This document shows, one piece after another, positions 3,069 through 4,678 of a stretch of DNA of 11,279 nt. A model generated the notes under the pieces. The model was given only the letters and a program-made list of their open reading frames with translations. It made no database searches and was not told the origin of the DNA. Location of the stretch: positions 1-11,279 of the forward strand of contig JAPUJX010000648.1 of the NCBI GenBank assembly GCA_027295975.1, in the 5' to 3' direction. The number at the start of each line of letters is the position of its first letter. Position 1 is the stretch's first letter. A program made the position numbers and the translations under genes. The DNA comes from Gammaproteobacteria bacterium. Lineage in GTDB: Bacteria; Pseudomonadota; Gammaproteobacteria; Pseudomonadales; Azotimanducaceae.

Positions 3069-4508
3069 ATGAGCGATAATTTCGACGTGGTGGTCATTGG
3101 TGCCGGTCCTGCCGGATATGCCGCCGCTATTCGTTGTGCGCAACTTGGCCTCAACACTGCCTGCATCGACAAGTCTCTTGGTAAAGATGGCAAGCCGGTT
3201 TTCGGCGGCACCTGCTTGAACTGGGGATGTATTCCCTCGAAAGCTTTGTTGGACGCTTCTCACAAGTATCTGGATGCCAAGGAACATTTCGCTGAGATAG
3301 GGATAACCGTCGAATCGGTAGGCATCGACGTGCCCAGGATGATTGCGCGCAAGGACAAGGTCGTCAGCGGAATGACCCAGGGCATTGCGGGCTTGTTCAA
3401 GGGCAACGGCGTGACCGGTCTGGCCGGCACCGGTAAGTTGCTTGCCAACCGTCGGGTGGAATTGTGTCCCCACGAGGGTAATGCCACGATCATCCAGGCG
3501 GAACACGTCATCCTTGCACCCGGGTCGGTCCCGGTGGAGATCCCTCCCACGCCAATTGACGGGGACCGTATCGTGGATTCCACCGGTGCGCTGGAATTCA
3601 CCGAGGTGCCGGAACGGGTCTCGGTCATTGGCGCGGGCGTGATAGGCCTCGAGCTTGGCAGCGTATGGAGCCGTCTCGGTTCCGAGGTGGTCGTACTCGA
3701 GGCTCTCGAAGAGTTCCTGCCCATGGTCGATCAGCGAATTGCCCGCGACAGCCTGAAGATATTCAAGGGGCAGGGCCTGGATATCCGTCTCGGAACGCTG
3801 GTGACGGGCTCCGAGGTGAGAGCGGGGGAAGTTGTGGTTTCTTACCGGGACAACGTAGGCGAACAGACCGTAACCGTTGATAAGCTGATTGTGGCCGTGG
3901 GCCGCAAACCCTACACCGAGGAACTGCTGGCCCCGGACAGCGGCATAAATCTGGATGAGGGCGGTTTTGTGAAGGTGAACGATCTCTGTGCCACCGACGC
4001 GCCCGACATCTACGCGGTGGGTGATGCGGTGCGCGGGCCGATGTTGGCTCACAAAGGCACCGAAGAAGGGGTCATGGTGGCGGAACGCATTGCCGGATTC
4101 AAACCGCTGGTGAATTACGAGACCGTGCCATCGGTTATTTACACCCACCCCGAGATTGCCTGGGTCGGCAAAACCGAACAGGAGGTCAAAACGAGTGGCG
4201 AGAGTTACGCCGTCGGCCAGTTCCCGTTCTCGGCGAGTGGCCGGGCGCAAGCCGCCAACGACACCCAGGGGATTGTGAAGGTGATTGCGGATGCGCAAAC
4301 CGATCGTATTCTCGGTGTCCACGTGTTGGGGCCACAGGCATCCGAAATCGTTGCGCAGGCGGTAATTGCGATGGAGTTCGATGCGAGTGCGGAAGATCTC
4401 GGGCTGACCATGTTTGCTCATCCCACGCTGTCCGAGGCATTTCACGAAGCGGCGCTGAGCGTTGCCGGACATGCCATCCACGTGGTCAACCGCAAGAAAC
4501 GGAACTAG
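3069..4508 (+). CDS. lpdA: dihydrolipoyl dehydrogenase (E3)
   Basis: FAD-dependent E3 flavoprotein that reoxidises the dihydrolipoyl group of SucB and passes electrons to NAD+. It has 479 residues, normal for the family. Visible parts are the N-terminal FAD-binding Rossmann motif GAGPAG (11-16); the redox-active disulfide in [13 protein letters not shown] (C49 and C54); a second dinucleotide-binding motif [10 protein letters not shown] (188-197) for NAD+; the [13 protein letters not shown] segment contacting FAD (D319); and the C-terminal [11 protein letters not shown] with the catalytic pair H451/E456. The ATG is 2 nt after the sucB stop, with a GGAA Shine-Dalgarno-like sequence (3057-3060) inside the end of sucB. 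The position inside the suc cluster suggests an E3 dedicated to 2-oxoglutarate dehydrogenase (as Pseudomonas lpdG), though E3 can be shared with pyruvate dehydrogenase and I cannot see whether the genome holds another copy. Its stop codon lies inside a 16-bp perfect palindrome (4501-4516). Confidence 0.96.
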
Positions 4509-4516
4509 CTAGTTCC
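4501..4516. repeat. 16-bp perfect palindrome spanning the lpdA stop codon
   Basis: GGAACTAGCTAGTTCC equals its own reverse complement. The lpdA TAG stop is at 4506-4508, so the left half is coding (the final Asn codon and stop) and the right half is spacer. The right half also forms the left end of the imperfect terminal repeat of the array. Confidence 0.8.
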
Positions 4517-4519
4517 TGG

Positions 4520-4539
4520 CCAGAATACTCGTATTCTGG
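4520..4539 (+). repeat. hairpin 1 of the lpdA-sucC array
   Basis: The arms CCAGAATAC and GTATTCTGG are perfectly complementary over 9 bp with TC between them. In practice this is an 8-bp stem with a CTCG tetraloop. Confidence 0.75.
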
Positions 4540-4544
4540 GCTGG

Positions 4545-4598
4545 GACTCGCGTGATGGGCATGGATGCCTATCCATTTTCCGAAGGAAAATGCGAGTC
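4545..4598 (+). repeat. outer stem enclosing hairpins 2 and 3
   Basis: GACTCGC (4545-4551) pairs with GCGAGTC (4592-4598). Inside lie ATGGAT/ATCCAT with a GCCT loop (4561-4576) and CATTTTCC/GGAAAATG with a GAA loop (4574-4592). The two inner hairpins share three bases, and the 3' arm of the outer stem shares GTC with hairpin 4. Alternative folds are therefore possible: a multibranch form or separate hairpins. Confidence 0.65.
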
Positions 4599-4612
4599 TT
4601 ACGAAGTAAGAC
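4596..4612 (+). repeat. hairpin 4 of the array, GAA triloop
   Basis: GTCTTAC and GTAAGAC form a perfect 7-bp stem around a GAA loop. The C-GAA-G closing is the same as in the neighbouring hairpin at 4574-4592, suggesting a repeated design rather than chance. Confidence 0.7.
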
Positions 4613-4618
4613 GACGGA

Positions 4619-4644
4619 GGAAATTCGCAAGGATGCGAATTTCC
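4619..4644 (+). repeat. hairpin 5 of the array, 11-bp perfect stem
   Basis: GGAAATTCGCA and TGCGAATTTCC pair perfectly over 11 bp around an AGGA loop. This is the strongest stem in the spacer. It ends 34 nt before the sucC start and is followed by CGGAACC rather than a T tract, which argues against a Rho-independent terminator. Confidence 0.8.
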
Positions 4645-4678
4645 GGAACCAGTTAAAGAATCAACCAACGGGAAAAGC

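Follow-up and report, generated by a model that had tools for sequence, protein, structure and literature searches.

Structured repeats that lie between genes and enter mRNAs are known from ERIC, REP/BIME and Correia-type elements, whose sequences differ from that of the element described here, and to our knowledge paired GGA loops are a feature of none of them. How global RNA-binding regulators acquire new targets is an open question. For CsrA, excerpts of one report (PMC7652899) place GGA in hairpin loops in 51 of 55 SELEX sequences, with six-base loops in 44, give the SELEX consensus as RUACARGGAUGU, and describe CAGGA(U/A/C)G repeats in the loops of CsrB and a CsrA dimer that bridges two sites, for example from a glgC hairpin to the Shine-Dalgarno sequence; they add that most SELEX hairpins have four or fewer contiguous pairs and that binding might suffer from a very stable structure. 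In excerpts of a second report (PMC4333381), two GGA-loop hairpins are the ground on which TwoAYGGAY and Bacillaceae-1 were put forward as CsrA-binding. Among the titles and opening lines of abstracts that we saw on CsrA/RsmA, MITEs, ISNCY, repeats and mobile elements, none joins CsrA sites to mobile repeats.

Here, we describe a repeat with paired GGA loops in a gammaproteobacterial suc operon. The window, that is, the whole stretch of 11,279 nucleotides analysed, carries sucA (partial), sucB, lpdA, sucC, sucD, htpG, an ORF, prmB and aroC (partial), all on the + strand and called by a longest-ORF rule. On balance, we favour the reading that the repeat is a MITE-like element, mobilised by an ISNCY transposase, that carries CsrA-binding RNA to gene ends and operon gaps, in which movement by that transposase, transcription, CsrA binding and an effect on sucC are what we infer. 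Elsewhere in the window, the 294-codon ORF of the htpG-prmB interval (8789-9673, +) has no NCBIfam match at E ≤ 0.001.

The lpdA ORF occupies 3069-4508 and the sucC ATG lies at 4679, leaving 170 bp from stop to start. The perfect stems that the preliminary description reported sit here, each where it had placed them:

4501-4516, 16-bp palindrome
4520-4539, stem CCAGAATAC/GTATTCTGG, nested in a longer imperfect repeat
4561-4576, 6-bp stem ATGGAT/ATCCAT
4574-4592, 8-bp stem
4596-4612, 7-bp stem
4619-4644, 11-bp stem
4545-4551/4592-4598, outer stem GACTCGC/GCGAGTC

Two of the loops are indeed GAA triloops with a C-G closing pair, and 4509-4516 matches the reverse complement of 4645-4652 at seven of eight bases, as first read. 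The structure also exceeds chance, as had been claimed: positions 4490-4690 fold at -70 kcal/mol against -48.1 (s.d. 4.2) for dinucleotide shuffles (z -5.2), none of 200 of which folds as low. Three of the original readings can be refined. The bounds 4501-4652 captured a real element, but its better limits are about 4505-4656 (covariance-model match 4506-4656); the 16-bp palindrome spans the junction between gene and element, with 4501-4508 being the end of lpdA. The 6-bp stem at 4561-4576 is present, but the hairpin there (H2) is better read as GATGGGC-ATGGAT-GCCTATC at 4554-4573, a form that recurs in other copies. Finally, the outer 7-bp stem exists in the window but appears not to be kept in the other copies, in an alignment judged by eye. 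The parts of the window copy are as follows:

4505..4656, +, whole element, a single MITE-like copy at the lpdA stop codon (covariance-model match 4506-4656, 137.9 bits; spacer of a relative, G001, without the insert)
4505..4512, +, left flank CTAGCTAG, presumed target copy, containing the lpdA stop TAG at 4506-4508 (register test of left and right 8-mers)
4513..4521, +, left terminal repeat TTCCTGGCC, family form TTCCTGTCC (alignments, end search)
4520..4539, +, hairpin H1, loop CTCG, not conserved (with the ends alone, makes up minimal copies L204, L206 and L209)
4554..4573, +, hairpin H2, hexaloop ATGGAT with GGA at 4563-4565, proposed CsrA site 1 (covariation; GGA unpaired probability 0.98-1.0)
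4574..4592, +, hairpin H3, GAA triloop (stem and loop scans)
4596..4612, +, hairpin H4, GAA triloop (stem and loop scans)
4616..4618, +, linker GGA, mostly unpaired (0.22/0.87-0.95/0.96-0.98 by base; predicted folding)
4619..4644, +, hairpin H5, hexaloop AAGGAT with GGA at 4631-4633, proposed CsrA site 2 (covariation; GGA unpaired probability 1.0)
4645..4648, +, right terminal repeat, worn: GGAA against the family GGACAGGAA, five bases missing (alignments)
4649..4656, +, right flank CCAGTTAA, presumed target copy, diverged (register test)
4671..4673, +, GGA of the sucC leader, shortly ahead of the ATG at 4679, a possible third contact (unpaired 0.17-0.94 by base)

The openness of the H2 and H5 GGA was computed in three folding contexts; the two loops lie 68 nt apart.

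The element is absent from this spacer in the relatives compared. We could read the lpdA-sucC spacer in 83 of 109 sucC loci, the window included, leaving out the 26 that have no upstream lpdA. In G001, whose SucC is 90% identical, the spacer is 18 bp and without the element, and in G017 it is 15 bp, so that a filled site (the window) and an empty one (G001) are both at hand. In G001 (CTAA) as in the window (CTAG), the lpdA frame stops after the same residue, and thus an insert on the stop codon leaves the protein unchanged. A comparison of the 82 other spacers with 82 element copies gave no match at E ≤ 0.01, which rules out a conserved RNA native to the lpdA-sucC spacer. The covariation check proposed at the outset accordingly has a divided outcome: stems covary between dispersed copies, but not across orthologous spacers, which are without the element. 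In G002, whose contig stops before lpdA, the stretch immediately upstream of sucC holds a different repeat. This repeat forms arrays of GCAATTCGCAAGCGAATTGC / GCAGTTTGCGAAGCAAACTGC hairpins (L244, L245, L247, L248, L249); a stretch related to it stands directly before sucC (L132/L160, G002:C125), so that two different repeats entered the same spacer in sister genomes, and another abuts element copy L107.

Further copies, which the preliminary description had proposed to look for, occur both in the source genome and in relatives. In the source assembly (G000, a draft of 680 contigs, 77% complete), a 60-base part of the spacer finds a 93% match on another contig, beside several weaker ones, and a number of these places lie close to contig ends, as expected of a repeat. 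A DNA search at E ≤ 0.001 matched four of 38 genomes, namely G000, G001 and G002 of the same genus and G006 of another. A covariance model built from nine copies gave, at E ≤ 0.1, 4 rows in G000, 33 in G001, 17 in G002 and 74 in G006, counts that include some places listed once per strand and, for G002, some rows that belong to a different hairpin repeat. With stricter filters, the element was found in 19 of 200 genomes (nine of 37 genera) in a sample of the family, in one of 293 of the order (G000 itself) and in two of 274 of the class (G000 and G572).

The ends of these copies point to an insertion sequence. The outer bases of the family read YTAGYTAG-TTCCTGTCC ... GGACAGGAA-CTARYTAG, with terminal inverted repeats of which the right one is worn in the window. 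Across 38 of 63 sequences with both ends recognised, a set that held rows whose right end is the internal end of H1, the left and right 8-mers agree in direct register at 5.45 against 5.01 when the right ends are permuted between copies. A repeat on 33 hand-chosen rows, with doubtful rows removed and the window added, gave 5.82 against 5.41. Without the six rows that have CTAGCTAG on both sides, the values are 5.33 and 4.92 (0.0016 of shuffles), and in a 26-row subset 5.46 and 5.22 (0.026 of shuffles), the weaker agreement arising because the target is palindromic. For the same reason, the register test is weakened in general: direct and inverted agreement are alike (5.45 and 5.39). We read these as signs of a duplication of about 8 bp of CTAGCTAG-like target, as judged from the flanks; the register test gave no support to a 4-bp duplication. 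Separately, L126, L122, L105 and L110 contain tandem copies or extra ends that share one junction CTAGCTAG, which would fit insertion of new copies into an older copy's target.

A search with the ends pointed to G002:C88. There, CTAGTTCCTGTCCGGAAATTC shares 21 identical bases with a family 3′ end read in reverse complement. It lies 131 bp before an ORF that matches the NCBIfam ISNCY transposase at 125.7 bits (E 1.9e-36), a match that covers a 160-residue part and scores below the full-length cut-off of 325, the contig ending inside the ORF with the other end of the insertion sequence beyond it. The ORF also matches Pfam DUF772, and the ISNCY element likewise begins at a stop codon, as judged by eye. 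ISNCY-like ORFs occur in three of 39 genomes (G002, G199 and G010); upstream of the G199 and G010 ones, at about 130 and about 90 bp, stand 13-mers that resemble the ends, with three and two differences. The second ISNCY-like ORF of G002 has no close end match, and no ISNCY ORF was found in the drafts G000, G001 and G006. Taken together, ISNCY is the likely source of the element. The dispersed copies, the relative's spacer without the insert, the insertion sequence with a matching end and the traces of target duplication all sustain the original suggestion of a non-autonomous mobile repeat in the suc operon, and we consider it very likely, from comparative data, that it moves as an insertion-sequence derivative.

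Between co-directional genes, most copies are in the sense orientation. Among 67 copies, 46 have both neighbours called, 21 in sense, 7 antisense, 8 between convergent and 10 between divergent genes; a later replicate of 40 copies from six other genomes, 34 of them called, has 16, 4, 10 and 4. Pooled, sense to antisense is 37:11 (p 0.0002). The stop codon of a sense gene lies at the 5′ end of the copy in 18 of 67 and 23 of 40 copies, and that of an antisense gene at the 3′ end in 8 of 67 and 4 of 40; for the first set alone, this end bias is not significant (p 0.076). Selection against antisense copies or an insertion preference could also explain the orientation bias.

The interior of the element carries a second, strand-specific signal. 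Copies share the hairpin order H1 to H5. Of 519 hairpins that a scan blind to loop sequence found in 107 copies, 152 have GGA in the loop and 6 have the complement, TCC; two or more GGA loops occur in 44 copies, one in 54 and none in 9, counts that lean towards GGA because the model that found the copies had already seen these loops. On 82 of the 107, the same scan gave GGA in 124 and TCC in 5 of 405 loops, against 245 and 184 of 4795 in 264,583 bases of flanking control; GAA and TTC stand at 66 and 4 of 405, through the H3/H4 triloops. It is H2 and H5 that have the GGA loops, in forms such as ATGGAT, AGGGAT, AAGGAT, ATGGAC, ATGGAA, AGGGAC, CGGAC, AGGAC, AGGAA and AGGA.

Around these loops the stems vary. 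In 45 distinct H2 sequences (rows from 59 of 82 copies, with the last ten typed rows kept in although judged not to be H2), 72.2% of cells are paired against 53.4% when shuffled, with covariation of 0.343 against 0.131. For H5, 20 of 41 distinct 25-mers fit the five-base-loop register, a choice by which the paired share leans upward, and give 96.5% against 76.5% paired and 0.551 against 0.169 covariation. The copies are related by descent, and these covariation figures are therefore not probabilities. The true register beats all slid registers for both hairpins; H2 pairs changed on both sides number 7, with no excess over shuffles (6.8). Anchored folding reached H5 in 37 of 58 sequences, of which 33 carry GGA in the loop, and H2 in 52 of 58, of which 35 carry it, several anchors having landed elsewhere. 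GGA is lost from H2 in L214, L235 and L105 (loops TGAA, TGCA and ATAGAC) and from H5 in L193 and L360 (G149; ACGAC), while L104, L107, L108 and L200 have other forms of H5. As far as the alignments go, the stems of H2 and H5 change by compensatory substitution while the GGA of the loop stays. With strand-specific loops, covariation and sense orientation, the earlier suggestion of an RNA element gains ground at the level of sequence, and selection probably acts on the RNA strand; its narrower form, in which the element would set the ratio of SucAB-Lpd to SucCD, is conjectural. A mobile repeat and an RNA element prove to be compatible readings.

The middle modules appear to be swapped more freely than H2 and H5. 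Copies of the G006 type (such as L325/L195, L220 and L281) have, instead of H3, long nested stems in which CATTTTCC...GGAAAATG encloses another stem. One more G000 repeat, AATTCCTGTTGCGAATACACGACGGAGGAAATTCGCAGGAT...ACAGGAATT, contains a piece like the H4-H5 linker plus H5 in other surroundings, at L005 (G000:C258:135-157), L006 (G000:C218:27-44) and L014 (G000:C531:15976-15990); about 100 bp upstream are common to L005 and L014.

Ends and interior can be found apart, in groups separated by eye. The minimal copies consist of the two ends and AGAAT, without H2-H5, and two copies in G572, from another family of the class (L392, L393), have the same kind of ends, CTAGTGTCTGTCCAGAATGCG ... TTTCTGGACAAGAACTAGCTA, around an interior rich in CCCTCTCCC-type inverted repeats with no GGA hairpins. 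The converse is seen in five G102 copies, whose ends differ (AAGGAAGGTCTGATTA in four, a variant in one) but which retain H2 with ATGGAA and an H5 of AATTCGC-AGGA-GCGAATT. Likewise, in a G001 group whose ends are in GGTCTCAAAA, H2 retains GGGA, and H5 reads GCC-AGGA(C/T)-GGC in L191, L192, L194 and L196. Since there are ends without GGA hairpins and GGA hairpins with other ends, movement seems not to require the hairpins, and they seem to survive a change of ends.

This bears on the strongest alternative, a plain MITE with no RNA role, whose hairpins serve transposition or are baggage and whose GGA is kept by descent or by a transposase that recognises hairpin DNA. The evidence for mobility is strong, many MITEs have palindromic interiors, and the G002 insertion-sequence end has a subterminal hairpin, AATTCAT/ATGAATT, where H5 sits; that hairpin, however, has no GGA loop, the minimal, G572 and G102 copies uncouple GGA hairpins from ends, and a sense bias is unexpected of a DNA-only element. 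We therefore regard a plain MITE as unlikely.

CsrA/RsmA is, in our judgement, a somewhat better than even candidate for the partner of the GGA loops. The gene csrA (PF02599) is present in nine of ten genomes searched, with two copies in G000, three in G001, three in G002 and two in G006, and genomes that lack the element have it as well. An extended match to the CsrA site, GGGACARGGATGTCCC, occurs in some G006 copies; in the window, H5 (CAAGGATG) fits the SELEX site and H2 (CATGGATG) differs at R, while the H5 stem has 11 pairs against four or fewer in most SELEX hairpins. A general excess of A-N-GGA-N hexaloops was set aside, as sucC-region DNA of other gammaproteobacteria has only 1 and 2 in 201 hexaloops on the two strands.

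Under the reading that we favour, an ISNCY-family transposase would act on the ends TTCCTGTCC...GGACAGGAA of a short element without genes, and insertion would duplicate about 8 bp of CTAGCTAG-like target. TAG or TAA is part of such targets, so that copies would tend to land on stop codons, and landing on that of lpdA would leave the protein unchanged. The interior would be transcribed with the operon as a structured RNA whose hairpins H2 and H5 display GGA within A-(N)-GGA-(N) loops, with a further GGA in the linker. A CsrA/RsmA dimer would most likely bind the H2 and H5 loops and, once bound, might alter the stability of the lpdA-sucC junction or the translation of sucC; a measurable effect on the suc operon at this copy is possible, if rather doubtful. 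Many copies together could soak up CsrA. A wider version, tentative though quite possible, is that of a portable CsrA-binding RNA module in one gammaproteobacterial family that has moved among unrelated transposon vehicles (at least three kinds of ends), lying mostly in sense and often on stop codons, whose transposition extends and rewires the Csr network, including a TCA-cycle operon. If true, mobile GGA-loop hairpins that land in sense at gene ends would offer a direct route to new CsrA targets, and dozens of copies per genome could form a dispersed CsrA sponge.

A more generic RNA role, in which stable hairpins, in the manner of ERIC or REP sequences, block 3′ exonucleases or mark processing between lpdA and sucC and the GGA binds another factor or none, would share the strong fold, the sense orientation and the position at gene ends; stability, however, needs no GGA in two loops over freely changing stems, and we hold this to be quite improbable. 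A REP/REPIN moved by a RAYT (Y1) transposase, suggested by short palindromic units, solo and composite, is scarcely credible, since PF01797 was not matched in G000 and G001, occurs as two adjacent partial matches in G002 and as one with a stop codon in G006, and the three PF01797 loci inspected are without the element's ends; PF01797 and end searches thus gave no linked Y1 transposase.

Neither the window nor eight longer loci contain a known Rfam family at the gathering score. The best sub-threshold match of the window copy is TD-2 (RF03162), at 29.1 bits against a gathering score of 48.7 (E 0.01), and neither 13 short loci, searched at E ≤ 1, nor single copies taken from L110 and L390 gave TD-2. 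The element resembles TD-2, TwoAYGGAY (RF01731) and Bacillaceae-1 (RF01690) in having two GGA-loop hairpins, which in TD-2 flank a middle hairpin, the window copy's match to TD-2 staying below the gathering score. With the MITEs of insertion sequences (here ISNCY, NCBIfam NF033593), it shares a short gene-less body, terminal inverted repeats, one end of which is matched in the insertion sequence, signs of target duplication and many copies in patchy distribution; it differs from them in its conserved interior of several hairpins with GGA loops, which is found with unrelated ends too. With CsrB, CsrC and RsmX/Y/Z, it shares several GGA-loop hairpins, CAGGA(N)G-like motifs and a linker GGA, but whereas each of these is one sRNA gene, the element consists of dispersed copies beside genes, with two to three putative sites per copy.
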